From Maribacter sp. MMG018 (GTDB lineage: Bacteria; Bacteroidota; Bacteroidia; Flavobacteriales; Flavobacteriaceae), in NCBI RefSeq assembly GCF_018100785.1, contig NZ_JAGJEC010000002.1:744001-808000 (forward strand): DNA of 64,000 bases. Reading direction: 5' to 3'. Positions 14,656 to 28,063 of the stretch are shown here, piece by piece; position 1 is the stretch's first letter, and each line of letters opens with the position of its first letter. The notes under the pieces are model-generated. The model searched no databases. It saw only the letters and a list, made by a program, of their open reading frames with translations, and was not told the origin of the DNA. The translations under genes and the position numbers were made by a program.

Positions 14656-15444
14656 CTAGTATCCTTGATAAGGTCCTGCGAATGCTAAATAAGATCCAGT
14701 GGTGGAATATACCTCGTTGATAATGTGGTAATGGTATTCTTCCTCTCCATCGGTATACTGCGTAGTAGACACATGCCCGCCAGACTCGTCCATATCGGTA
14801 GGATAATCGCCTGTAGAGCTACATTTTCTACCATATAGGAATACTCCATCAAGTAAAATACCCACTAAATTATCGTCATCGTTCGAAAAAGCTTTGGGCT
14901 CTAGATGGTAATGGTACACCCCTGGGCCAATATGGGCACCTGTCCAGTCTAGACTAGCGGCCGCAGCATCTAGGGGACCACCACCCTCTTGATCATTGAA
15001 TATAGATGCGCCACTAACGGCAATACCAATAGTGTCAAAATCGGTAGCTACTGAATTACCAGATAGATCTGGGGTGGCATCTACCCTAATGGTAACCGCA
15101 TTGTTGTTGCTAGACATTATACTGGGGGTAACGTCTACATCTGGTTCTTCTTTGTATAGCGAATGTCCCTCGCCCCAGTACACGGTTTCGTGATTTGGTA
15201 GACCGGTGGTTTCTATAACCACCTCTGAACCATCTAAATAAATGGTTACGGCATCTGTATTAAAAGCTGAATATGCAGCATGAAGTTCGGTAACAACGGT
15301 CTCGTCCGTGTCATCGTCTTCGGCCATTTCCTCTTCAATATCGGCTTCGTCCATACTGTCATTACTGCAAGCTATAAAGGCGGTTAACGATAACCCCAAT
15401 AAAAGGATGTATATGGCAAACTTCTCAATTACATTTTTTCTCAT
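14656..15444 (-). CDS. YHYH-domain lipoprotein
   Basis: This is a 262-residue lipoprotein with a lipobox TAFIAC and an acidic linker (DEADIEEEMAEDDDTDE). It carries the YHYH motif in GPGVYHYHLEP and a second one in EEYHYHIINE. The YHYH domain is a family of secreted proteins of unknown biochemical function; the clustered His residues suggest metal binding. It leads an operon with a MORN lipoprotein and an SCO protein, which is consistent with, but does not prove, a copper-related role. A second YHYH gene is at 28074. Confidence 0.87.
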   Translation of the reverse strand: MRKNVIEKFAIYILLLGLSLTAFIACSNDSMDEADIEEEMAEDDDTDETVVTELHAAYSAFNTDAVTIYLDGSEVVIETTGLPNHETVYWGEGHSLYKEEPDVDVTPSIMSSNNNAVTIRVDATPDLSGNSVATDFDTIGIAVSGASIFNDQEGGGPLDAAAASLDWTGAHIGPGVYHYHLEPKAFSNDDDNLVGILLDGVFLYGRKCSSTGDYPTDMDESGGHVSTTQYTDGEEEYHYHIINEVYSTTGSYLAFAGPYQGY

Positions 15445-15779
15445 AAAAAGACTATTTAGTTGATATTGTTACTTAACGGGTACAAGAATAGCCATAAAAT
15501 GAAGGGGTAAAAGTAGAATTAAACGAATCGGGGATAGTTTTAAGTAAACGGGTGAATATATGCTGTAATATGATTTTGGTATCTTACAATGGATAGAAAA
15601 AACACACTTGTTTATATGCTTTCATCTTTTGATTTTAGAAAATGATGATTGTTCGTACGACGACAACCCTATACAACCCCATAAAAATCAAGGTTAAAAA
15701 CTGGTTTAAGGTGAAGGTCGGCGACTGATTTTGTTGCTTTTTTTGATATATTTGACACTTCATTTTATTTTGAACCCAC
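15445..15779 (+). promoter_or_regulatory. intergenic region with the ECF sigma gene promoter element
   Basis: This 335-base divergent gap shows no gene. The clearest signal is TATATTTG at 15747-15754, a TAnnTTTG -7 element placing the start of transcription about 20 bases before the TTG codon of the sigma gene. Nothing specific was seen for the minus-strand YHYH operon. Confidence 0.5.
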
Positions 15780-16340
15780 TTGTCCCATACAAAAAAGGTA
15801 TATACTTTATCCTTAAAGTCTTATAAGGATGTTTACGACACATTATATGTTTCATTGTGTTTGTTTGCCAAAAATTATGTCCATGATTTAGATTTAGCAA
15901 AAGATTTAGTTCAAGAGGTTTTTATAAAAGTTTGGGAAGATAAAATAGAGTTTAAGAATGAGGTCGCTGTAAAATCATACATGTATATGGCGGTCAAAAA
16001 CAAATGCTTGGATTTATTAAAAAGCAAGCAGTTTAGATCAACAGAAAATATGTCTGTTGAAGATATGGACGAATTAAATAAGGACTCTTTTTATTTAAAA
16101 GAAGTTGTTATCGAAGAAGTTTCTTCTAGAATAGAAGCTGCGATCAACACATTGCCTACAAAGTGTGCTCAGATAATACGATTGAGTATAAATGGGCTCA
16201 CAAATCCGGAAATTGCCCAACACCTGAACATTTCGGTCAATACTGTTAAGGCCCAAAAAAAGAATGCCTATAAAAGGCTAAGGCCGTTATTAAAAAATTA
16301 CTTCGCCTTAATGGCTTTTGTATTCGATTATACTACCTGA
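15780..16340 (+). CDS. ECF RNA polymerase sigma factor (FecI-like)
   Basis: This 186-residue sigma-70 factor of the Bacteroidota ECF type has region 2 (LAKDLVQEVFIKVWEDK) and region 4 (GLTNPEIAQHLNISVNTVKAQ). It would direct RNA polymerase to the promoter of the uptake locus downstream. The start is a TTG at 15780: an in-frame stop lies just upstream and no in-frame ATG precedes region 2. Weak initiation would be normal for such a regulator. A FecR anti-sigma and an STN-bearing TonB receptor follow, forming a cell-surface signalling trio. Confidence 0.9.
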   Translation: MSHTKKVYTLSLKSYKDVYDTLYVSLCLFAKNYVHDLDLAKDLVQEVFIKVWEDKIEFKNEVAVKSYMYMAVKNKCLDLLKSKQFRSTENMSVEDMDELNKDSFYLKEVVIEEVSSRIEAAINTLPTKCAQIIRLSINGLTNPEIAQHLNISVNTVKAQKKNAYKRLRPLLKNYFALMAFVFDYTT

Positions 16341-16471
16341 AAACATTCGTGTTTTTGTCTTTATTTCTTTGGTCAAATGTTAATTTTTTTAATGTTGGTT
16401 AAAAAAAATCATTTTTTTTTAACCCTATCCTATGATTTTGTCGTCTTAGATGTAAATAGTAGTGTTGATAT

Positions 16472-17644
16472 ATGCTAAACCTTAGTAAAATTATATTGTT
16501 GTCTAAGCAGATAGCTGCTTCCTTGTTAAAGGACGAAAAACCTAATACGTTAGATTCTTCAGAGCTATTTTCTGACCAAGAAAAAGAAGAAATACTCGAT
16601 AGACTTACCAATGAATCAGAGATAGCTTCACGATTACATTCTAAAGCGAAGATCAATAGTAAAGAAGATTGGAAGATATTACAATCTAAGATAGATGCTC
16701 CTAGAAAAACGTATTACTGGCGGTATGCCGCAGCGGCAGCTGTGGTGATAGGAATGTTTACTGCGGTATATGTTTTAAAAGATGATTTTTTGAACGATGA
16801 TGTTGCCAAACCTATAATCGTAAACAACCAAATAGTACCAGGTGATAATAAGGCAATTTTGACATTGGAAACGGGAGAAGAGGTGAATCTTGTTAAGGAT
16901 GTAAAATATACCGCTGAAAATTTACAAACAAATGGAGAAGAAATAGTGTATAAAGAAAGTTCGGATCCAGAATTGACCAAAGAAGAGATAGCGTATAACT
17001 TTTTAACCATTCCGCGTGGAGGTCAATTTCAAATTACACTGTCGGATGGCACCCATGTATGGTTGAATTCAGAATCAAAACTAAAATATCCTGTACGCTT
17101 TATAGAAGGTGGCACGCGAGAGGTAGAACTTTTATATGGAGAGGCTTATTTTGATGTATCGCCAAGTACAGAACATAAAGGTGCAAGGTTTAAAGTGATC
17201 AACAAATCACAATCGGTAGAGGTTTTGGGTACCGAATTTAATATTAAGGCCTATAAAGATGAAGTTACCGTGTATACTACCCTTGTAGAGGGTAAAGTAA
17301 AGGTTCGTTCGCAAGAGCTGGCACAAGACCTTGTTCCAAATCAACAATCGAAATTAAATACAACGACCAATGTTATAGATGTACACCAGGTAGATGTTTA
17401 TAATGAAATTGCATGGAAGGACGGCGTATTCAGTTTCGAGGATAAGTCGCTAAAAGATATTATGACAGTACTCTCTAGATGGTACGACATAGATGTTGTC
17501 TTCGAGAAGAAAAGTTTAGAGTCGGAGAGGTTCGTCGGGGTACTAAAAAAGAATTACAGTATAGAAACAATACTATCAATTTTTCAAGAAGCGAATATTA
17601 TTAACGGGTTTGAAATTGATACCAAGTCCGTAATTATAAAATAA
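16472..17644 (+). CDS. FecR-family anti-sigma factor
   Basis: This is a 390-residue inner-membrane protein. An N-terminal cytoplasmic region of about 80 residues binds sigma, a single transmembrane helix spans about residues 85-102 (AAAAAVVIGMFTAVYVL), and the periplasmic part contains the FecR domain (IPRGGQFQITLSDGTHVWLN, then TREVELLYGEAYFDV) and a C-terminal DUF4974-like segment (SLKDIMTVLSRWYDIDVVFE). It relays the receptor state to the sigma factor. It lies 131 bases after the sigma gene and 122 bases before the receptor, with a hairpin in that second gap. Confidence 0.93.
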   Translation: MLNLSKIILLSKQIAASLLKDEKPNTLDSSELFSDQEKEEILDRLTNESEIASRLHSKAKINSKEDWKILQSKIDAPRKTYYWRYAAAAAVVIGMFTAVYVLKDDFLNDDVAKPIIVNNQIVPGDNKAILTLETGEEVNLVKDVKYTAENLQTNGEEIVYKESSDPELTKEEIAYNFLTIPRGGQFQITLSDGTHVWLNSESKLKYPVRFIEGGTREVELLYGEAYFDVSPSTEHKGARFKVINKSQSVEVLGTEFNIKAYKDEVTVYTTLVEGKVKVRSQELAQDLVPNQQSKLNTTTNVIDVHQVDVYNEIAWKDGVFSFEDKSLKDIMTVLSRWYDIDVVFEKKSLESERFVGVLKKNYSIETILSIFQEANIINGFEIDTKSVIIK

Positions 17645-17671
17645 CAAACAAGATTATAACCCTATTGTAAG

Positions 17672-17719
17672 AAAAAAAGGAGAAATAGTTCAAACGTCCA
17701 AATTCAACACTATTTCTCC
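17672..17719 (-). terminator. strong hairpin before the TonB receptor, terminator-shaped on the minus strand
   Basis: A perfect 11-bp stem, GGAGAAATAGT (17679-17689) and ACTATTTCTCC (17709-17719), has a 19-base loop. Seven A lie to its left (17672-17678), so the minus strand reads hairpin then seven T, an intrinsic terminator. On the plus strand there is no T tract. It sits between fecR and the receptor gene, so it could end a cis-antisense RNA covering the receptor start, or set transcript levels within the operon. Confidence 0.6.
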
Positions 17720-17766
17720 GGTACTAATATTAATTAAGTGTTAATCAATTAATAATATACAAATTA

Positions 17767-20760
17767 ATGAAATTTAAATTAATTGGCACCACCCCGATAT
17801 GGGTGAAAGGTGTGCTAACATGTATTATGCGAATATTTGTATTCTTGTTTTGCGCTACCCTGTTTAGTTTTAATCATGTGAGCTCTCAAAACGTCGAGAT
17901 TAAAATTGCGGAGGATAAAATAGTTACGGTCGACAAGGTTTTTGAGATTATTAAAAAGCAAACGACGGATTTTATGTTCATATATCCCAAAAATCTGTTC
18001 GAAGCTTATCCGAAGGTACAGTTGCGTAAAGGAACCATAACAATAGAAGACCTATTGGACTTGGCACTTTCTGAAGGTAATGTTGATATGACATTGACCG
18101 ATAATAATATTATTATCATTAAAAAGAAAGATGTAAAGGAGAATAGCAAAGTAGTACGAAAAAGGAAAAATGAGGCGGTAGAGATCAAAGGCCGTGTCAT
18201 AGATGCCGACAAGAATGCCCTGTCATATGTTAATGTAATTGTCAGGGATTTAAATATTGGAACTTTCACCAATATGGACGGGGAGTTCTCTTTAGAATTG
18301 CCCCATAAAAACTTTGAACTAGAGTTGAGCCTTATAGGCTTTAAAACAGAGAAAATAGCTGTTTCCACTCTTCCGGATTTATCCAACGTCGTAATAACAT
18401 TAAAGGAAGACCTGTTAAGTTTAGATGAGATTGTCGTTACCGCCAAAAAGACCGTTAGTAGAGAAGGTACCTCTACATATAAAATAGGAAGCCAGGCAAT
18501 AAAACAGGTGCAGGCCATGAACTTATCTGATGTTTTAAGTCTGTTGCCCGGTAATAAAATAGAACAAACAGACCTAACAACTACAAAACAGGCCAATCTG
18601 CGTAGTGCTGTTCCTTCTAAAGTAAATGCTTTTGGTACGGCAATTATTTTAGACGGTGCCGCCATTAGTACCGATGCGAATATGCAAACCCAGAATTCAG
18701 GGTCTTTAAGTGGTGGAAAATCGGTGGTTGCCGGCGGTGTAGATCTAAGAAGTATCTCTTTGGCCAATGTTGAATCTGTAGAGGTTATTTCGGGTATAGC
18801 ATCGCCTAAATATGGAAATATATCATCTGGAGGTATTTTAGTAAAAAGTAAAGTTGGTAAATCTCCATATATTGTTTCAGCGAATGTTTCTTCTACAAAC
18901 TACCAGGCATCCGTTGCCAAAGGATATGATCTAAACAAGTTCGGTATTTTAAATTCAGATCTTTCCTATGCCCATTCTTCGGGCTCACCTACGGAACGTA
19001 AATTATTTTATCAAAGCTTTAATCTAGGTTTGCGATGGAAGTTGCCCGTTTTTGAAAATTTGGACTGGAACCATTTTACATCCTTAAGAGTTAGTCATTC
19101 TGATGACGGAAACCGTCATGAACCAGAAGAGGTATATAAGAACGAGGCCGATGTAAAAAGCACCTCTTATCAGGCAACGCTTTCCGGTAACTTTAAATCT
19201 TCTTTGTTAGGAAAGTTAAATTATAACTTTAGCGGTAGTGTGGTAGACCAACATTCTTATTACGATACGTATGTAATTAATGGTCCCTTTCCCATTATAG
19301 AAGCTATAGAAAGTGGTACTTATACTACTGGTTTTTCTCCAACGGCATTTAATCAAACAAGAGACATCAAAGGAAGACCGGTGAATCTAAATGGTAGGCT
19401 GGATGCTACCCAGAACCTAAGTTTTAAGAACTTGGATTTTAATTTTGAAACCGGTCTGCAATATACTTTCGACGATAATACCGGTAGCGGTAGGGTTGCC
19501 ACAGGCAATATTGCACACACACAAGATGTGGTAGGGAGTAGATCTGCAACTTTCGAGAAGATACCGGCCTCCAAAACTTTTTCGGCCTATCATCAAACCA
19601 TTATTAAACGAAAAGCGGAAAACTCAAAACAGCAATTAAATTTAGGATTGAGATATGACAATATGCTGGAGCGTTACAATTTGATTTCGCCGCGAATGTC
19701 ATTTTCGTCAAATCACCATAATTTCACAGGTAGGGTTGCTTGGGGTGTTTCTTATAAAGCACCGGCAATGATACAATTATACCCCGGTAGGTCTTATATC
19801 GATTATATTAACTATCAGTATTACGCAGAAAACCCCGATGAGCGTTTAGCTGTGGTTACCACTTATATCTACCAACCTACGAACGAGCATTTAAAACCCA
19901 ATTACTCAGATGTAAAAGAAGTCGGTTTCGACTGGTCTCCTTCTTTTATGAATTTGAACGTCACCTATTTTAAAAAAGATATGCGTAGAGGCATTAATAC
20001 AACCGAAGAGTTGTTATTGTTGCCAAAGGTTATTTATGAAGTAGTAGATGCACCAACAGGACAACAACCTACGGTAGAACCTACAGGGGAGGTTTACAAT
20101 ATTCCTAGATCCGTAAATGTTATGAAAAATAACTATTACGAATCTACGGACGGTGTTGAAGTTACCTTGAATCCGGAACGGATAAAAGCGACCAATACAG
20201 AATTCAACTTCAGATATAGCTATTTAAAAAGTGTAGTAACCGACAAAGGGTTTAATATAAATAAATCTGCATATGTTGTTGGGGACAATTCGGTACGCTT
20301 TGGTGTTTACGAAAATGCACTGAGAAAGGCGGTAAGAAGTTTTGGTACGGTAACATTAATACAACATATACCTTCTTTACGATTTGTCTTAACATTATCC
20401 GCCGAATTAAACTTTAAAGAAAGTAGCGATTATATAGGAACAAGCCTATACCCATTTGCGTATTATGATACGGATGGAAATTATATTGCCATTCCAGAAG
20501 AAAACAGAACAGATCCAGAGTTCGCGGATCTAAAGAAAAATGACAATACATACACCACTGTAAGTACCCCGTTTTACAGCAATTTTAACTTACAAATCAG
20601 AAAAGAAACAAAACAAGGGCATTCGTTTAGCTTTTTTGCGATAAATGCACCTTGGTATAACCCGACCTATGATTACTTGGGCAATAGAAGAACTTTGAAC
20701 AGTAAATTATCGGTAGGGTTCAATGCTACAATACTAATCAATAATAAAACCAACAAATAA
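17767..20760 (+). CDS. TonB-dependent outer-membrane receptor with STN signalling domain
   Basis: This is a 997-residue outer-membrane receptor. A signal peptide ends near residue 41 (VSSQ). An STN domain lies at about residues 45-115 (VFEIIKKQTTDFMFIYPKNL) and contacts FecR-type anti-sigma factors. A carboxypeptidase-regulatory-like domain spans about residues 138-225 (IKGRVIDADKNALSYVNV), followed by a TonB box-like DEIVVTAKK, a plug domain to about residue 360 and a 22-strand barrel. Import through it would need TonB-ExbBD energy. No SusD partner follows. The neighbours are a DUF4876 lipoprotein, another barrel and two M16 peptidases. The substrate is unknown; protein- or peptide-bound iron or heme is suggested by the neighbours. 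Confidence 0.93.
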   Translation: MKFKLIGTTPIWVKGVLTCIMRIFVFLFCATLFSFNHVSSQNVEIKIAEDKIVTVDKVFEIIKKQTTDFMFIYPKNLFEAYPKVQLRKGTITIEDLLDLALSEGNVDMTLTDNNIIIIKKKDVKENSKVVRKRKNEAVEIKGRVIDADKNALSYVNVIVRDLNIGTFTNMDGEFSLELPHKNFELELSLIGFKTEKIAVSTLPDLSNVVITLKEDLLSLDEIVVTAKKTVSREGTSTYKIGSQAIKQVQAMNLSDVLSLLPGNKIEQTDLTTTKQANLRSAVPSKVNAFGTAIILDGAAISTDANMQTQNSGSLSGGKSVVAGGVDLRSISLANVESVEVISGIASPKYGNISSGGILVKSKVGKSPYIVSANVSSTNYQASVAKGYDLNKFGILNSDLSYAHSSGSPTERKLFYQSFNLGLRWKLPVFENLDWNHFTSLRVSHSDDGNRHEPEEVYKNEADVKSTSYQATLSGNFKSSLLGKLNYNFSGSVVDQHSYYDTYVINGPFPIIEAIESGTYTTGFSPTAFNQTRDIKGRPVNLNGRLDATQNLSFKNLDFNFETGLQYTFDDNTGSGRVATGNIAHTQDVVGSRSATFEKIPASKTFSAYHQTIIKRKAENSKQQLNLGLRYDNMLERYNLISPRMSFSSNHHNFTGRVAWGVSYKAPAMIQLYPGRSYIDYINYQYYAENPDERLAVVTTYIYQPTNEHLKPNYSDVKEVGFDWSPSFMNLNVTYFKKDMRRGINTTEELLLLPKVIYEVVDAPTGQQPTVEPTGEVYNIPRSVNVMKNNYYESTDGVEVTLNPERIKATNTEFNFRYSYLKSVVTDKGFNINKSAYVVGDNSVRFGVYENALRKAVRSFGTVTLIQHIPSLRFVLTLSAELNFKESSDYIGTSLYPFAYYDTDGNYIAIPEENRTDPEFADLKKNDNTYTTVSTPFYSNFNLQIRKETKQGHSFSFFAINAPWYNPTYDYLGNRRTLNSKLSVGFNATILINNKTNK

Positions 20761-20761
20761 C

Positions 20762-22009
20762 ATGAAATCAAACATTTTTAAAAGAACAAGCATGACAAAA
20801 TCAATAATAGCAATTTTATTGTTTGCAACAACCTTAATGAGTTGTAGTAGTGATGATGACAGTGTTGCCAATTTAGGTGACTTGCAAGTACAATTAGAAT
20901 TAGCGGCCGGCCTTAGCGATATTCCGCTTGAAGGGGTCGATGTTAGTATTACGAATACGGTAGATAACGCAACCACAAACCTTACGACCGATGCGAATGG
21001 GTCTGTAACGTTTCCGAATATTTCTGTAGGCACCTATAATATTGTTGCTACCAGTACTACTGATGATTATCAATTAAGTGGTACGGCAAATAATGTTTCT
21101 GTTACTATCCAAGAAACAACGCAGACTACTTTAGAAGTTAACGCAACAAACTTTAACGGTGGTCTGGTAATCAAGGAAGTGTACAGTGCCGGATCGGGCT
21201 ATATTACTTTATTTAAAGATTCGTTTATAGAGATTTTTAATAATTCATCGGAAACATTATACGCGGATGGTATGTACATCGCCAATGCATTTGGAGATTC
21301 AGGTAAGTCGGGCGATACTCCGGTATCTAGTATATTAACAGATACCGATTATGTATATACAGATGTAATGAGTCAAATACCCGGTTCGGGAACAGACTAC
21401 CCCGTAGCATCCGGACAAAGCATTGTAATAGCATTAAATGCCATTAACTATAAAGAAGGAAGTACGAATCCAGATGGTGAATTAGATAATACAGATGCTA
21501 CTTTAGAGCATTATTCTATCGATTGGTTAGAGGCCCAAGGTCGTGTGGGAAATTCGTTCTTCGAATTGGACAATCCGGCGGTACCTAACATGACCAATAT
21601 TTATATGTTCGAAGAAACTAATTTCTTTAGGTTGTCTTTGCCAGCAAGTGTGGTTTTGGTTAGTAGCGAGGCTAGTTTTGGTGATTCTGATATTGTAGAT
21701 TATACACCAACAGGATCTACAAGTACCTATAAGGTGATGAAAATATCTGTAGACTTGGTTGTAGATGGTGTCGATATTTTAGACAACTCAGCTTCTGCCG
21801 ACTTTAAACGTATACCTAGTACTATAGATGCAGGTTTTACCTTTTTAACAGAAGATGGTGCCATTTCTTATACCGGTTTAAGTAATAGAAGAAAAATAGA
21901 CGAAACCGCAACAGCCCGTTTTGGTAGAACTATTTTATTGGATACAAACAATTCAACGGTAGATTTTGAAGCTATAAATTTTCCAGATAAGTATGGTTAC
22001 AACAACTAA
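20762..22009 (+). CDS. DUF4876-type lipoprotein of the receptor locus
   Basis: This is a 415-residue surface or periplasmic lipoprotein with a lipobox LMSC (Cys near residue 28) and the acidic SSDDD tract after it that is common for exported Bacteroidota lipoproteins. Residues 40-125 form a carboxypeptidase-regulatory-like beta-sandwich (LEGVDVSITNTVDN, then TDANGSVTFPNISVGTYNI). The remaining part (GLVIKEVYSAGSGY, then YITLFKDSFIEIFNNSSETL) matches my memory of DUF4876. The gene begins one base after the receptor stop, so the two should be co-expressed, and it may be the surface substrate-binding partner of the receptor in place of a SusD. Confidence 0.8.
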   Translation: MKSNIFKRTSMTKSIIAILLFATTLMSCSSDDDSVANLGDLQVQLELAAGLSDIPLEGVDVSITNTVDNATTNLTTDANGSVTFPNISVGTYNIVATSTTDDYQLSGTANNVSVTIQETTQTTLEVNATNFNGGLVIKEVYSAGSGYITLFKDSFIEIFNNSSETLYADGMYIANAFGDSGKSGDTPVSSILTDTDYVYTDVMSQIPGSGTDYPVASGQSIVIALNAINYKEGSTNPDGELDNTDATLEHYSIDWLEAQGRVGNSFFELDNPAVPNMTNIYMFEETNFFRLSLPASVVLVSSEASFGDSDIVDYTPTGSTSTYKVMKISVDLVVDGVDILDNSASADFKRIPSTIDAGFTFLTEDGAISYTGLSNRRKIDETATARFGRTILLDTNNSTVDFEAINFPDKYGYNN

Positions 22010-23576
22010 TAAAAGTTATTATTTAATCGTAAAGAGAATGTTTGTAACATTCTCTTTACTTTTTCTTATTGCGAGTACATATGCCCAATCAAAAAAAAAT
22101 ATCGATAGCTTATCGGTTATAGAAAGAGATTTTCAATTTCAATTATTCGAGAACCGTTACTTTGATATTCCTTCGTTGATCAACCATGAAAATATATATA
22201 AGTATACCTACGGAGAAGGTAGATTTCTATATTCAGAAGGTTCATTGAGACATCCGCAAGATTATAAGAAACAAAACGGAGTGTATTTGGAAACGGCATC
22301 CTTGGCTGATTTGAAAAATACAAATTGGACCCTATACGGTAGTTTGGAATATTTGAATACCAGAAAAGAAGATGTAGAGAACAATTTAACCTACGGTGTT
22401 AAAGATTATGGTTCGCCCTACTATTTTTTTCAACAAACAAGTGGTTTATGGAACCATCAAAACTATAATTTTAAAGTAGCCGGAGCCAATAAGGTCAACT
22501 CTAAACTTACTTTAGGAGCTTATTTAAATTATGATACCAATTTTTATTTCAGAAAAAACGATACTAGAAATGAACTGACAGCTTTAAAAATTCTAGGAAA
22601 GTTATCCGCTAGTTATCAATTTAATGATAAACACTTATTTAGTGTTGTTTTAAGCAATGAGTTTTATAAGGCAAACTCTGAACTATCTAACAAGTTTCCC
22701 GAAAACAACACAGAACTTACCGCCGATTATTATTTGAACACCGGTTTGGGTTCTTATATAAAAAACTTAGATAGAGGTTTTGATACCAAAAGAAGTGTAC
22801 CCGAAGTACAATTGCAATGGTTTTTAACACAGGACAATTGGGACTTATCGATAGAAAGTGATACAAAATTTGGTAGAGAACGCTGGATAGATAAGAATAT
22901 CTTTAAAGTGGAAGAGAACGACGAGAGAACAAGATATAGTTTTATAGACCAAGAATTTACGATCTTTTACAATAGGTACAAGGCCAATAGTCTTTTCTCG
23001 CTTAATTTAAATGCGGCGTATTTAAAAGGAGATGGCAAGGTATGGGATGAAACAAGTACTGTTTATGCCAAAAATTTTACTACCACCAGCTACAGTCTTG
23101 CAACGGGCGCTACCCTTTTGTTCTATAATAGCTTTCTTAACAAAGTTAGTTTAGGGGTTAATTATTACAATAAAGAACAGTTCGATTTAAATTATGCCTA
23201 TACATTCGATTATCAATATTTAGAGCCACAGGTAACTGTAGGTTTTAATAAGGTTATTTCTAAAAAGGCTGCCTTATTTGCCGATGTTTCTTCTACATAT
23301 CACTATGTATTGGATGTAGAGCACGATCCATTTGCGGCAAACAACATTTTTGTGGATTGGATAGGAAACAAAATTGCCGATTATACGGGAATAAGTACCA
23401 TAGATTACAGCTTAAAATTAGGGACAGATTTAAGACTTAGAAATAAAAACAGCATAGAATTATCTATCTCTGCAGGTTACTTAAAAGTTACCGAGCTATC
23501 TAAAAACAGCCCAAATTTCTATTCTAAAAATGATGATTATTTAAATCTGACAACGGGATTAAAATTACATTTCTAG
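21993..23576 (+). CDS. outer-membrane beta-barrel protein (DUF6850-like)
   Basis: This is a protein of up to 527 residues with a signal peptide ending in STYAQ, followed by alternating beta-strand patterns rich in Tyr, Asn and Phe, and ending in a barrel-type C-terminal LTTGLKLHF. It looks like the DUF6850 family of outer-membrane barrels. The ATG at 21993 overlaps the DUF4876 gene by 17 bases and gives a charged n-region. A second ATG at 22038, preceded by AAAGAGA, is an alternative that would leave a signal without basic residues. Its role in the locus is unknown; it may be an accessory pore. Confidence 0.75.
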   Translation: MVTTTNKSYYLIVKRMFVTFSLLFLIASTYAQSKKNIDSLSVIERDFQFQLFENRYFDIPSLINHENIYKYTYGEGRFLYSEGSLRHPQDYKKQNGVYLETASLADLKNTNWTLYGSLEYLNTRKEDVENNLTYGVKDYGSPYYFFQQTSGLWNHQNYNFKVAGANKVNSKLTLGAYLNYDTNFYFRKNDTRNELTALKILGKLSASYQFNDKHLFSVVLSNEFYKANSELSNKFPENNTELTADYYLNTGLGSYIKNLDRGFDTKRSVPEVQLQWFLTQDNWDLSIESDTKFGRERWIDKNIFKVEENDERTRYSFIDQEFTIFYNRYKANSLFSLNLNAAYLKGDGKVWDETSTVYAKNFTTTSYSLATGATLLFYNSFLNKVSLGVNYYNKEQFDLNYAYTFDYQYLEPQVTVGFNKVISKKAALFADVSSTYHYVLDVEHDPFAANNIFVDWIGNKIADYTGISTIDYSLKLGTDLRLRNKNSIELSISAGYLKVTELSKNSPNFYSKNDDYLNLTTGLKLHF

Positions 23577-23618
23577 GTCCTTTTTATTCTAATTTATATT
23601 GTTCATAAAATTAAATTA

Positions 23619-24935
23619 ATGAAGAGATTATTTTTTCTGATAATCTTTTTGGTTCCGTTTTTTAATTGGGGTCAAAAGATAGATAAAGTTCATATTGAAG
23701 AATATGATTTGCCTAACGGCTTGCATGTTATACTTCATAAAGATGTTAATGAGCCCAACGTAATCGTAGGTACAAAATACCATGTGGGCTCTAAAAATGA
23801 AGATGCGGGAAAAACCGGGTTTGCGCATTTTTTTGAGCATCTTTTATTTCATGGTACTAAAAATATACCTCAGGGCGAGTTAGAGAATATAATCTTTAAT
23901 GCCGGTGGGTATTGTAATGCCTATACCAATTATGATGTTACGTATTATTATCAATTGCTTCCTGCCCATGAATATAAACTGGGGCTTTGGGTAGAATCTG
24001 AGCGTATGCTGCACCCCATCATTACCCAAAAAGGTATAGATCGTGAACGTGAAATCGTTAAAGAGGAAAAACGTATGCGATACGACAATAAACCTTTGGG
24101 CAATTCATATTTTTATTTAATGTCCAAGTTATTTACCAATGATACTTATGGACACAACATGATCGGGTCTATGGAAGATTTGGACAGGGCTTCTGTAGGA
24201 GATTTTGAAGCATTTTTTAAAAAATTCTATGTACCGAACAATGCTTGTTTGGTCGTATCGGGCAATATCGATATTGAAGACACCAAAAAATGGGTCGGTC
24301 TGTATTTTACAGATATTCCCAGAGGTGAAAAAATTAAAAGACCCAAAAAAATTAAAAAAACGTCTGGTTTGGACCATTATACGGAGATGGATGTTAAAGG
24401 ATTACGGAACCAATCTATAGAGATCGGTTATCCTATAATGTCACAAAGCAGTGCTGATGCCCCGGTCATGCAAATAATAACCTCCATTTTATCTGGGAAC
24501 AGTGATTTTTCCTATTTCGACAATAATCTAAAAGCAGAGCAAGATACCGTTATTAAACGGCTAAATGCTTCTTCAAGTTTTTGGGAAAAAGTAGGAACTT
24601 TAAGTGTTAAGGCCGAAATAACAACAAAAGAAAGTGAGGCTTATACACTACAAAGGATAGAAGAACAATTAGAGTTGTTAAAAACAAAATCTGTTGACCC
24701 TATGGTGTTGGAACGGGTCAAAAAACAGTACATATCTACTTATATAGACATTTTTTATGATGCACAAACCTTCGCGGACAAGGTGACCGACTATTATCAT
24801 TTGCATAAAAACACTTCAGATATAAAATCCCTTATAAGTGATATTGAAAAAGTGACAAGCAGTGATATACAACGCGTAGCAAAAAAATATTTGAACATTA
24901 ATAATCGCATTGTCATTAGCTATCATCCTGAATAA
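23619..24935 (+). CDS. M16 zinc peptidase, catalytic subunit
   Basis: This is a 438-residue periplasmic peptidase of the insulinase/processing-peptidase family, with a signal peptide (MKRLFFLIIFLVPFFNWGQ). The inverted zinc motif HxxEH is intact (HFFEH within GFAHFFEHLLFHGT), and the distal Glu ligand is expected in REIVKEEKRMR about 75 residues later. M16B enzymes cut peptides or small unfolded proteins inside a closed chamber. The next gene is the M16 homologue without the zinc site, so the two probably form a heterodimer. Confidence 0.92.
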   Translation: MKRLFFLIIFLVPFFNWGQKIDKVHIEEYDLPNGLHVILHKDVNEPNVIVGTKYHVGSKNEDAGKTGFAHFFEHLLFHGTKNIPQGELENIIFNAGGYCNAYTNYDVTYYYQLLPAHEYKLGLWVESERMLHPIITQKGIDREREIVKEEKRMRYDNKPLGNSYFYLMSKLFTNDTYGHNMIGSMEDLDRASVGDFEAFFKKFYVPNNACLVVSGNIDIEDTKKWVGLYFTDIPRGEKIKRPKKIKKTSGLDHYTEMDVKGLRNQSIEIGYPIMSQSSADAPVMQIITSILSGNSDFSYFDNNLKAEQDTVIKRLNASSSFWEKVGTLSVKAEITTKESEAYTLQRIEEQLELLKTKSVDPMVLERVKKQYISTYIDIFYDAQTFADKVTDYYHLHKNTSDIKSLISDIEKVTSSDIQRVAKKYLNINNRIVISYHPE

Positions 24936-24944
24936 TTCTATATA

Positions 24945-26387
24945 ATGAAAAAATTACATCTATTTATATTAGTTGTTTGTTGCGGCTTTTTGGGCCATGC
25001 ACAGGTAAACCGTACCATACCCCCAGAAGCCGATACACCAAAAACATTGAACGTAGGAAAACTAATTCCTATGGTATTGGATAATGGCCTTCGTGTGTAT
25101 TTGGCCCCTGTAAAAGACTATCCGAAATTTACAATGTCCGTCAATATCGAATCACCGAGCTTGGATGAAGAAACACGATTGGCCGAGAAAAGGGTTTTGG
25201 GATCTGCCTATTCGAACAAGCTATCTAAAAAATATCCAAACCATGAGATAGATTCCATGGAGAACACCTACCCTGCCATGATCAATGTAAATACGTATGG
25301 TGGCACGGTCAAAGGAATGAAAAAAGATATAGACGATTTACTGGATGCCTACAGGGATCTTATGTTGCACCCTATTATCACGAAAGAAATTATCAGTGAA
25401 AAACATAAGGAATTTTTAGCCCGTAAGAAAAAGGCCAAAAAGCCATTGTCACAACCATCGCCCAAATTCTCTTTGGATGCTATTGTAGATTCATTGCTTT
25501 TTGGGGCAAAAAAAGAGGAAGAGAAAACCAAAACAAGGTTAGCGCCCAATTTTAAAGGACTGACCGTGCAGGATGTTTATGATTATAAGAACGACAGAAT
25601 TTTGTCTAACAATGCATTAGTGGTGATCGTAGGCGATTTTACAGAATCTGAATGTCGTGCACTGATGACACGTTATTTTGGAGCATGGAAGGCTGGGACT
25701 AAGTATGTGAAAAAAAATGTCGTAAAAAAGAAAACGGCAATTATAAAAAACAGAAAAATAGTGGTAAAAGATGTGCCCGATGCCGTACAGTCTAAAATTT
25801 CGTTTAAATGGCATTTAGGCGACGCCTTTACTTATTTCGAAGACGATATAAAATTGCAAGTTCTAAATAAGATTTTTGGAGAAAGCCAACTCTCCTATTT
25901 ATATAAAAACCTTAGAGAAGATAAAGGGCTCTGTTATTATATAAGATCTTCGGTGGGCAGTTCGGCAGCCGGGGGTACGGGATCGGTAGCTACCGATGTA
26001 CGTAATGAGCAAACGGCCTATGCCATAGAAAATATTGTTTTAGAAATGCTGCGGCTAAGAAACGAAGATGTCAGCGCATCTGACTTGAAAATTGCCAAAA
26101 ACAGTTTAATTGGGGAGCACACGAGGTCTCTAAGTCCTATTGCCCCAATATCATATATAACCTTTGCTATGCAGAAAGATGTTTATGGCCTACCGGACGA
26201 TTATTTACAAAATAAGGTAAAGCAGTATTACGATGTTACTATTGAAGACGTGAAAACTATGGCACAAAAATATATTGATCCGTTTAAGTGTGTTATAACC
26301 ATATCTGGCAAGGTGTCGGAACTAAAGGGAACACTCGAAAAATTTGGAGAGGTATTGTACTACGATCAAAATGGAAATAGAATATAA
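24945..26387 (+). CDS. M16-family non-catalytic partner subunit
   Basis: This is a 480-residue M16 homologue with a signal peptide (LFILVVCCGFLGHAQ). At the position of the zinc motif it has RLAEKRVLG-type sequence and no HxxEH, so it cannot bind zinc. The C-terminal half keeps the substrate-binding features of the family (LREDKGLCYYIRSS). It starts 9 bases after the catalytic subunit, the arrangement seen for M16B alpha/beta pairs. A Lys-rich insert (ARKKKAKKP, KKEEEKTK) near residues 160-190 is unusual. Confidence 0.9.
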   Translation: MKKLHLFILVVCCGFLGHAQVNRTIPPEADTPKTLNVGKLIPMVLDNGLRVYLAPVKDYPKFTMSVNIESPSLDEETRLAEKRVLGSAYSNKLSKKYPNHEIDSMENTYPAMINVNTYGGTVKGMKKDIDDLLDAYRDLMLHPIITKEIISEKHKEFLARKKKAKKPLSQPSPKFSLDAIVDSLLFGAKKEEEKTKTRLAPNFKGLTVQDVYDYKNDRILSNNALVVIVGDFTESECRALMTRYFGAWKAGTKYVKKNVVKKKTAIIKNRKIVVKDVPDAVQSKISFKWHLGDAFTYFEDDIKLQVLNKIFGESQLSYLYKNLREDKGLCYYIRSSVGSSAAGGTGSVATDVRNEQTAYAIENIVLEMLRLRNEDVSASDLKIAKNSLIGEHTRSLSPIAPISYITFAMQKDVYGLPDDYLQNKVKQYYDVTIEDVKTMAQKYIDPFKCVITISGKVSELKGTLEKFGEVLYYDQNGNRI

Positions 26388-26412
26388 ATTTAAATTAAAG
26401 CATATTACAGAT

Positions 26413-27300
26413 ATGAAACATATTACAGTACTAATAATTTTATGCGCACTCTTTTTTGTAGAAAAAACAAATGCACAAGATAAACAGGCCTATCAATTGT
26501 ATAAAAATAATGGGGAGATCGTAAATTATGATTTAATGATCTCAGATTTGGCCGAGAGTGATATGGTCTTTTTTGGAGAATATCATTTTAATCCTATTTC
26601 ACATTGGTTAGAATTAGAGGTTAGCAAAAGTTTGTTCGCTATAAAAGGAAGCAAATTATATTTGGGGGCCGAAATGTTCGAGAGCGGAAATCAATTGGTG
26701 TTAGACGAATATTTAAAGGGATTCTACGCAGAATCTAAAATGATTCCGGAAATAACCCAAATGTGGAGTAATTACAAAACCGATTATAGGCCTTTAATAG
26801 AATTTGCCAAGGATAATGATTTGCGGTTTATTGCCACAAATATTCCCAGAAGGTATGCATCTATGATAAGTAAAAAGGGATTCGATGCCCTAGAAATACT
26901 AAGTCCCGAAGCAAAGGAACTCATTGGGCCCGATCTAAAAAAGTATTTTGACCCGAATGTAAAAGCATATGCGGAAATGGCCAGCAATATGGGCGGACAT
27001 GTACCTCCGAATATGTTACATATGCAAATGGCCCAAGCGGCCAAAGATGCGACGATGGCACATTTTGCACTTAAGAATTTTAATGCAGGTGATATTTTAT
27101 TGCATTTTCAAGGTTCTTACCATTCTAATTATGACCAAGGTATTATCTGGTGGATCAATAAGATTCAACCAGGTCTACATATTAAATCCATTACGACCGT
27201 TTCACAGTCTGAATGGGACAAACTGACCGTTGAAGAAAGAGAAGGTATCGCAGATTATATAATTGTGGTCGCAAATAATATGACAAGTACTCAAGGCTGA
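26413..27300 (+). CDS. ChaN-family (DUF399) putative heme-binding protein
   Basis: This 295-residue exported protein starts at ATG 26413 with a signal peptide ending KTNAQD. An upstream ATG at 26344 lies inside the M16 gene and gives no signal at its start. The motif FFGEYHFNPISHWLE matches the conserved GE-x-H...H start of the ChaN fold, and HFQGSYHSNYDQG near the C-terminus holds further His residues. Campylobacter ChaN binds heme between monomers and is iron-regulated. Unlike many relatives it has no lipobox Cys. It ends the receptor/peptidase locus and supports an iron or heme role. Confidence 0.85.
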   Translation: MKHITVLIILCALFFVEKTNAQDKQAYQLYKNNGEIVNYDLMISDLAESDMVFFGEYHFNPISHWLELEVSKSLFAIKGSKLYLGAEMFESGNQLVLDEYLKGFYAESKMIPEITQMWSNYKTDYRPLIEFAKDNDLRFIATNIPRRYASMISKKGFDALEILSPEAKELIGPDLKKYFDPNVKAYAEMASNMGGHVPPNMLHMQMAQAAKDATMAHFALKNFNAGDILLHFQGSYHSNYDQGIIWWINKIQPGLHIKSITTVSQSEWDKLTVEEREGIADYIIVVANNMTSTQG

Positions 27301-27321
27301 TCATAAGCCTGCATGCCCATG

Positions 27322-27370
27322 TAGCCTTACCTTTTTTACATTTAGCAATATCGTCAAAAGTGTAAGGCTA
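27322..27370 (+). terminator. hairpin at the end of the receptor/peptidase locus
   Basis: TAGCCTTAC (27322-27330) and GTAAGGCTA (27362-27370) form a 9-bp stem with a long 31-base loop, followed by the T-rich TATTTTTAATATTTTTTATT. It sits 21 bases after the ChaN-like stop and is the probable transcript end, though the loop is long for an intrinsic terminator. Confidence 0.45.
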
Positions 27371-27433
27371 TATTTTTAATATTTTTTATTCGCACAAAAA
27401 GTTTCCTAACCTAGAAATGTACAGCCTAAGTTA

Positions 27434-28063
27434 CTAGGGCTTTTTTTTGTGCTTCTTTTTAAGAAACACGAATTGCTGTATAATGAACGCTATGGCGATT
27501 ACCGCAATCAGTATTATTATTACGTATTTTGAGGATGAAGTTGCCTCTTGTTGTACTACTTCTACAAACGTATTCTCTTTAACAACTAAAGAGACCGTAT
27601 GGTCATTGGATTGAGAAAGAGTAAAATTACTTTTTTCGAAACCGTCCTTAAAAAGCAAGAAAGTACTCTTGTTTCTGCTAATATCCTTAAAAATGGTATT
27701 CTGTACCACTACCGACTCAAGACTTGCGGGGATATTTAAAACTTCAAAAATCACTTTGGTCTCATGTCCCAGTTTTACTACCCCTTTATCTAAGCTTATC
27801 TGCTCACCGTTATTAAAAAATAGGTGTAAATTATTTTTAATATGCTCCAACACCATTTCTTGAAACTCTTCGGGTGTTTTATAAGGGGTATCCGCATAAT
27901 GTGTTCTGACTTCTTGTTGAAATGCGGTCAGGGAAGCATTGATCTGCAAGACCCACACATTGTTTTTTTGTTCGGCCAATACCAAGGTAGAAGCATCGGG
28001 GTTATGGGCAAAACCCAGTATAGAAAAGCATAATAAAGCAAATGTTATTATATGTTTTTTCAT
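27434..28063 (-). CDS. exported, membrane-anchored protein of unknown function
   Basis: This 209-residue protein starts at ATG 28061-28063, 10 bases after the YHYH stop; a start at 28129 would overlap that gene. A signal peptide (HIITFALLCFSILGFAHN) is followed by an extracytoplasmic beta-rich domain of about 150 residues and a C-terminal transmembrane helix (YVIIILIAVIAIAFIIQQFVFL) with a basic cytoplasmic tail (KKKHKKKP). The domain resembles DUF6702/HupE-associated N-terminal domains only loosely. It is the last gene of the YHYH/CotH cluster. Confidence 0.7.
   Translation of the reverse strand: MKKHIITFALLCFSILGFAHNPDASTLVLAEQKNNVWVLQINASLTAFQQEVRTHYADTPYKTPEEFQEMVLEHIKNNLHLFFNNGEQISLDKGVVKLGHETKVIFEVLNIPASLESVVVQNTIFKDISRNKSTFLLFKDGFEKSNFTLSQSNDHTVSLVVKENTFVEVVQQEATSSSKYVIIILIAVIAIAFIIQQFVFLKKKHKKKP

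Follow-up and report, generated by a model that had tools for sequence, protein, structure and literature searches.

What does an uptake system import when its genes join cell-surface signalling to a pair of peptidases? The question is raised by eight genes on the + strand at positions 15780-27300 of a 64,000-nucleotide stretch of the 4.13-Mb genome of Maribacter sp. MMG018 (contig NZ_JAGJEC010000002.1, positions 744,001 to 808,000), hereafter the window. A preliminary description made from the sequence letters had grouped these genes as one locus that might import a small iron- or heme-bearing protein or peptide and digest it in the periplasm. Reading frames and domain matches bore out all eight genes and their order: an extracytoplasmic function (ECF) sigma factor, a FecR-type anti-sigma factor, a TonB-dependent receptor with an STN-like signalling domain, a DUF4876 protein, a DUF6850 barrel, two M16 family proteins (M16a and M16b), and a ChaN-like protein. 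Our leading but still tentative reading is that they form a cell-surface-signalling uptake cassette whose cargo would be a peptide or small protein bearing iron or heme, cut by the two-chain M16 enzyme. A cargo carrying iron or heme is likely because relatives of the receptor-DUF4876-DUF6850 core are induced by iron starvation and are often preceded by Fur boxes.

The sigma factor (15780..16340; TTG start, GTG in Formosa) matches TIGR02985 above its cut-off (141 bits) as well as PF04542 and PF08281, and the anti-sigma factor follows at 16472..17644 (PF04773, PF16344). Upstream of the sigma gene, at 15747..15754 on the same strand, TATATTTG fits the pattern TAnnTTTG, which we take to be the Bacteroidota -7 promoter consensus; the pattern lies 33-34 bases upstream of the sigma start in the window and in five orthologous loci (6/6). 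The receptor (17767..20760) contains CarbopepD_reg_2 (PF13715) and Plug (PF07715) domains. Its N-terminal STN match is weak and under the curated cut-off (E 0.0067), but we count the receptor as the signalling type because its length goes with FecR: all 16 receptors encoded with FecR have 991-1018 amino acids (aa), whereas 55 of the 57 receptors of more than 700 aa without FecR have 875-972 aa, one cut receptor being excluded from the comparison. The signalling trio of the preliminary description therefore stands. Like FecI-FecR-FecA, to which class it belongs, the locus combines an ECF sigma factor, FecR, and a receptor extended at its N terminus; compared with that system, no Fur box was found at the sigma promoter here. 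In Sphingobacterium (L101 and L112), two divergent DUF4876-receptor copies are immediate neighbours, one with sigma/FecR and one without.

One base downstream of the receptor gene, the DUF4876 gene (20762..22009; PF16215, E 1e-23) encodes a predicted surface lipoprotein, the likely partner of the receptor, with a lipobox at C28 that opens the stretch CSSDDD. Its model, with a predicted local distance difference test score (pLDDT) of 80.2, matches the crystal structure of BT_1938 (PDB 4q1z, E 1.6e-26), which is both its best fold match and its sole sequence match; the literature found on DUF4876 and BT_1938 assigns BT_1938 no function. The overlapping next gene (21993..23576) encodes what had been described simply as a barrel and can now be named DUF6850 (PF21012, E 4e-59), an outer-membrane beta-barrel with 18 long strands, counted by eye, in its AlphaFold model (pLDDT 84.7). 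A Foldseek search with this model returned generic barrels with low template modelling (TM) scores and no specific match, a literature search on DUF6850 found nothing, and Pfam gives neither DUF4876 nor DUF6850 a function. Domain scans of the eight proteins found no SusD, as had been claimed, and the locus is thus not a SusCD glycan or peptide locus.

Receptor, DUF4876, and DUF6850 constitute a Bacteroidota core, and all three are adjacent in the window. In the 34 regions fetched by PF16215 (weaker second DUF4876 matches of the phylum search were not among them), a receptor is always adjacent and DUF6850 is found in 33, three of its matches being weak (26-32 bits) and one of these lying at a distance. 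DUF4876 occurs in 9 of 120 genomes sampled from the family and in 22 of 247 from the phylum, the MMG018 genome counted in both, and is absent from another genome of the same genus. In one locus the DUF4876 protein (L058:6670-7833) has, by eye, a sorting tail for type IX secretion at its end, as would fit exposure at the surface; where this protein starts is unsure, because its N-terminal part is encoded in another frame immediately upstream.

The peptidase genes follow 42 bases after DUF6850 and are separated by 9 bases. M16a (23619..24935; PF00675 and PF05193) carries HFFEH plus a glutamate downstream, and M16b (24945..26387; PF05193 only) lacks HXXEH and contains REDKGLCY. This division is general among the pair-type loci, with HXXEH in nine of nine M16a and none of nine M16b proteins; RxxxGxxY is present in seven of the nine M16b proteins, including that of the window, while those of L079 and L082 were unmatched by the patterns used. 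Adjacent genes with HXXEH in one chain and the R/Y motif in its partner are the hallmark of M16B heterodimers, and at the level of motifs the suspected pairing of a catalytic with a non-catalytic M16 protein is correct. The nearest solved relatives of M16a are PDB 4nnz and 3amj_C, the active subunit of a zinc peptidase pair, and those of M16b are 3gwb_A and 3amj_B, the inactive subunit; M16a and M16b are therefore likely to assemble into a heterodimeric, two-chain peptidase. The M16B pairs SPH2681/SPH2682 (3amj) and TTHA1264/1265, the latter encoded by neighbouring genes (PMC12731061), likewise consist of one HXXEH subunit and one partner, but M16a/M16b differ from them in being linked to a TonB-dependent receptor operon. 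A second M16 pair is encoded elsewhere in the MMG018 genome.

In two sister loci, from Sinomicrobium (L085) and a Flavobacteriaceae metagenome-assembled genome (MAG; L081), a one-chain M16 protein of 929-938 aa is encoded upstream of the receptor. The L085 protein matches PDB 9ldy (E 1.8e-130), PqqL (7.8e-76), and FusC (1e-33). In an M16 tree, built without the L068 fragment and L123 (very long branches) and with 4 of 16 inner branches open, the one-chain lineage stands apart from M16a, in a group with the M16 protein of a SusCD locus. Two M16 lineages thus adjoin the core, an indication that peptidase activity matters to it. Another arrangement that couples M16 to import in Bacteroidota is seen at L170:1571-11129, where a sigma-FecR-SusC-like-SusD operon is accompanied by a one-chain M16 gene and a divergent ChaN gene.

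The last gene of the block begins 25 bases after M16b and encodes a ChaN-like protein of the Tiki superfamily (26413..27300; PF04187, E 4e-52). Comparison with orthologues set its start at 26413, in place of the 26344 given earlier, which yields 295 aa; by eye, there is a signal peptide and no lipobox. A profile match to PDB 2g5g (E 1.5e-10), a distant relative that is presumably the C. jejuni ChaN, agrees with the PF04187 match in placing the protein in the ChaN family. GExH, a His, an Arg, and a KDATM motif are invariant among the orthologues; such residues would also suit a Tiki-superfamily hydrolase. A literature search on ChaN with heme and ChaR returned nothing evidently relevant. ChaN is found in 78 of 296 phylum genomes, and the copy in the locus is the only one in MMG018. 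Among 40 other ChaN loci, taken mainly from the top of the ranked list of the 78 genomes rather than at random and with some regions ending at contig ends, not one has DUF4876 nearby, and a single one has a matching M16 gene nearby.

How far does the block hold together? The same eight genes occur in the same order in six loci among the matches listed, namely the window, Maribacter thermophilus, Pseudozobellia thermophila, and three Formosa genomes, with protein identities to the window of 63-93%. The upstream flanks are common to the window and Maribacter and different in Pseudozobellia and Formosa, so the eight genes hold together as a block and their grouping as a single locus was justified; they are probably transcribed as an operon. 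The block is rare in the order. When 395 genomes were searched with M16b, 64 matched at 1e-40, MMG018 itself at 100% and the other 63 at 26-30% identity; Pseudozobellia is absent from that match list.

To survey what lies beside the core, we assembled 74 distinct loci from the PF16215-fetched regions and a search that started from the window clade (at least 44 loci), dropping the duplicates L050, L048, L061, and L059 (= L076, L085, L088, and L098) and, from the remaining 75, L097, whose record contains no receptor. Related loci are not independent, further species overlap between them is possible, and neighbours were counted within 8 kb of the core. A MauG-like di-heme enzyme is present in 32 loci (7 with FecR), a protein of a cluster termed c2 in 13 (5 with CobW), ChaN+M16a+M16b in 9 (6 with FecR, 3 without), a BNR protein of the type IX secretion system (T9SS) type in 8, some with other genes, a one-chain M16 protein in 2, DUF4857 in 2, ChaN alone in 1, a HEAT protein in 1, and none of these modules in 6. 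The tally leaves out an M16 match at the edge of L068, a partial one in L080, and the one-chain M16 genes of L071 and L073, which lie about 8.6 kb downstream and outside the limit. The order of ChaN, M16a, and M16b differs in the FecR-less loci of Saccharicrinis, a Bacteroidales MAG, and a Bacteroidetes MAG. The module beside the core is thus exchanged between a MauG/MbnH-like enzyme, the M16 pair with ChaN, and a one-chain M16 protein. As to the commonest of these, the one member of the MauG-like cluster (c0) that was scanned (L113:12859-14031) matches CCP_MauG in Pfam, and MauG and MbnH in NCBIfam below cut-off; a Fur box often lies upstream, and an iron-release or oxidation step is possible. 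The c2 protein had been considered as a distant ChaN, which was rejected (hhalign probability 0.4%), and the one member scanned had no Pfam match at 0.001. At L086:14079-15287 and four further Balneolales-type loci, a CobW-type GTPase and an amino-acid permease cluster lie near the core (one of each scanned).

The case for iron begins with published data on the core. According to PMC10434189, iron depletion raises expression of P. gingivalis PG1019-1022, annotated as DUF4876, receptor, and hypothetical proteins, 20.8-214.5 fold, that of B. thetaiotaomicron BT3631-3633 112-128 fold, and that of the BT1933-1939 group 3.5-7.4 fold. In a hemin comparison (PMC10470040), whatever the sign convention of its ratios, the DUF4876 gene of P. 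gingivalis moves the same way as HmuY (log2 -5.42 and -6.11), and PG1019 protein is listed as covarying with HmuY and flavodoxin in a study of an RNA-binding protein (PMC12119571). We then looked for Fur boxes in 83 upstream regions from the 69 core loci for which 100 or more upstream bases were available, by counting matches to the 19 positions of the Riemerella box ATTTAGAATTATTCTAAAT, for which gel shifts with some promoters are reported (PMC5609570), and setting the threshold at 15. The threshold is reached in 22 of the 83 regions, against a mean of 1.42 and a maximum of 5 in 100 runs of shuffled sequences, and in 6 of 830 segments drawn at random from these loci, coding parts among them. 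These 22 comprise 14 of 23 MauG loci, 2 of 7 FecR+MauG loci (both Sphingobacterium, with the box upstream of the sigma gene), both one-chain M16 loci, and 4 of the 5 that carry no listed module; the threshold is not reached by any of the 1 ChaN, 11 c2, 8 BNR, 2 DUF4857, and 1 HEAT loci. Published data and the Fur boxes of relatives together make a good case for an iron link of the core, which extends to the window copy by kinship.

With up to three mismatches, the Riemerella box occurs at 11 sites in the MMG018 genome (10 forward matches, compared with 5 in a reversed control), two of which precede siderophore-type receptors. Other motifs were set aside. Best scores for the E. coli-type box GATAATGATAATCATTATC over the 83 regions did not exceed those of shuffles, and a 14/19 GATAATGATAATCATTATC site upstream of the L084 receptor is for that reason left unclaimed. 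A motif spotted by eye, ATTTAGNCTAAAT, reaches 11/12 in seven regions with 0.05-0.3 expected, but was dropped in favour of the similar, published Riemerella box. Within the MMG018 genome, the motif is not commoner than in the reversed control (15 forward matches versus 31); 3 of the 15 sites precede receptors, including those with the two Riemerella-box sites, and the best matches of the truncated frames of these receptors are siderophore-receptor models, below cut-off. Fur-box-like sites in the same genome also lie near what appear by eye to be hemA and a hydrogenase small-subunit gene (L215, L210).

Comparison with characterized systems places the locus near several of them. The Fus system of Pectobacterium (FusA/FusC) and Ydd/PqqL of E. 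coli, which belong to a type widespread in Proteobacteria (PMC6793856), also set a TonB-dependent receptor beside an M16 peptidase. Unlike them, this locus has a two-chain M16 enzyme near the 3amj-type pairs, the one-chain form being confined to the sister loci L081 and L085, and it adds a surface lipoprotein, an extra barrel, sigma/FecR, and ChaN. A search of PDB sequences with the receptor (E 0.01) gave eight matches, at the sequence level only, with no FusA or YddB structure among them. By layout, then, receptor plus M16 can be compared with Fus, while membership in that system does not follow. XusAB, in which DUF4374 is the name given to XusB homologues, joins a receptor to a surface lipoprotein (PMC13142918), as this core does, and XusABC of Bacteroides is iron-regulated, as are the core's relatives; unlike XusABC, the block has peptidases and no PepSY reductase, and its lipoprotein is PF16215 rather than DUF4374, which sets it outside XusAB. 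Closest are the loci PG1019-1022, BT1938-1939, and BT3631-3633, with a DUF4876 family lipoprotein and a TonB-dependent receptor, for which the relevant portions of the sources name no M16, ChaN, sigma, or FecR.

On the reading that we prefer, DUF4876 and the receptor would together capture the ligand. The receptor's signalling domain would then relieve FecR, and the freed ECF sigma factor would turn on the receptor operon. TonB-driven import would bring the cargo to the periplasm, where the two-chain M16 enzyme, with its zinc motif in the first subunit and its R/Y motif in the second, would cut it, and ChaN may receive or act on the released cofactor or fragments. All of this scheme beyond the gene content is inferred, including the identity of the cargo, the role of the protease in import, and any role of DUF6850 and ChaN. 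A bolder form of it strikes us as doubtful: iron piracy in Bacteroidota with an origin separate from that of Fus, in which a receptor aided by the surface lipoprotein would import a whole polypeptide carrying iron or heme, to be digested by the M16 heterodimer and stripped of its cofactor by ChaN, the core being a general iron importer with a release module matched to the cargo.

Several observations weigh against an iron- or heme-carrying polypeptide as cargo. None of the six window-type and three other ChaN+M16 loci has a Fur box at threshold; the window and its five orthologues score 12-14/19, within the shuffle range, and the search of the MMG018 genome with up to three mismatches found no site at this locus. 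Ligand signalling may have replaced Fur control here. PG1019/PG1020 also rise (4.0-9.2 fold) together with HmuY in an oxidative-stress study of PG_0686 (PMC10101095), so iron need not be the only signal to which these two genes respond. Neither M16 nor ChaN is near the core in 62 of the 74 loci; M16 stands beside it in 11 and ChaN in 10, and the MauG/MbnH-like enzyme or other genes are commoner. The receptor tree requires two changes each for M16 and ChaN, and five for MauG, so that the link of M16 and ChaN to the core is largely one inherited event, kept across deep divergence with changed gene order. Heme binding by this ChaN would be by analogy with a distant family member, CobW in the five Balneolales-type loci may point to a different metal there, and we found no ligand data. 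The receptor YddB is, we assume, the protein also called PqqU. E. coli PqqU is described as an importer of pyrroloquinoline quinone (PQQ) (PMC12124388), which weakens the analogy with PqqL. Measured against the preliminary description, the block, the iron link of the core, and the M16 motifs are upheld, as are the likeness in layout to Fus/PqqL and, in sister locus L085, a PqqL-like M16 protein. Membership in those systems is not supported, the Fur-like site that it had proposed to look for was not found at the window locus or its five orthologues, and the gene order, rather than being conserved across Flavobacteriia, is kept only in a small clade of the 74 loci, most of which lack ChaN and M16, the finding that it had named as refuting it.

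The absence of a Fur box at the window locus would also suit a peptide importer unconnected with iron, which we consider rather improbable. It would take up oligopeptides or a peptide antibiotic, degraded by the M16 pair for nutrition or protection, as in SusCD peptide loci. M16 enzymes do cut peptides (PMC12731061), and in the SusD-containing locus L170, with its sigma-FecR operon and M16 gene, peptide uptake is just as likely; however, the present locus has no SusD, the core family responds to iron in two species (PMC10434189), and Fur-box-like sites precede relatives that include both one-chain M16 sister loci. Should iron instead arrive as a ferric small molecule of the xenosiderophore type, as in Xus, M16 and ChaN would have side functions and the neighbouring gene would be a lineage-variable iron-release enzyme. 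The resemblance of receptor plus surface lipoprotein to XusAB (PMC13142918), the varying module beside the core, with its di-heme MauG-like enzyme in 32 of 74 loci, and the PepSY and ABC genes of the BT3625-3633 locus (PMC10434189) all favour this idea. It nevertheless seems unlikely to us: the lipoprotein is DUF4876 and not DUF4374, and a two-chain peptidase kept in 9 of 74 loci plus a separate M16 lineage in 2 are hard to explain by it.

Uptake of another cofactor or metal, such as PQQ, zinc, or copper, would be in line with PQQ import by E. coli PqqU (PMC12124388) and with the MbnH-like enzyme and CobW near some cores. We regard it as quite unlikely given the response of relatives to iron depletion (PMC10434189) and the sites of the same box type at siderophore-type receptors of MMG018. 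Finally, the M16 pair and ChaN might be envelope housekeeping genes that merely lie behind an importer. The second M16 pair of MMG018 counts both for and against this; M16b relatives of 26-30% identity in 63 further genomes of the 395, and the roughly two changes on the receptor tree, speak for housekeeping, but the block stays together while its flanks partly differ, and the core has neighbours from two distinct M16 lineages, which makes this account very improbable.

Whichever cargo applies, DUF4876 and DUF6850, both functionless in Pfam, are joined into one core with exchangeable neighbours and a testable function, and in two human-associated Bacteroidota iron depletion strongly raises the expression of DUF4876-receptor genes (PMC10434189). 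Should the cargo prove to be a polypeptide, nutrient piracy coupled to a protease would reach another phylum beyond Proteobacteria, with a different peptidase layout.

A further conserved feature of the block lies in the gap between the fecR and receptor genes, where an inverted repeat (17679..17719, + strand; 11 pairs, 19-nt loop) could form a hairpin. An Rfam search of 15000-28000 gave no match, this element included, and its interpretation as an intrinsic terminator was rejected by eye, as no T-run follows it. The hairpin is present in all six loci with a consensus of 11 pairs, one of which is broken in one of the six sequences and another of which shows a compensatory A-U to G-C change in two; a messenger RNA stability element, an attenuator, or a protein site is possible.

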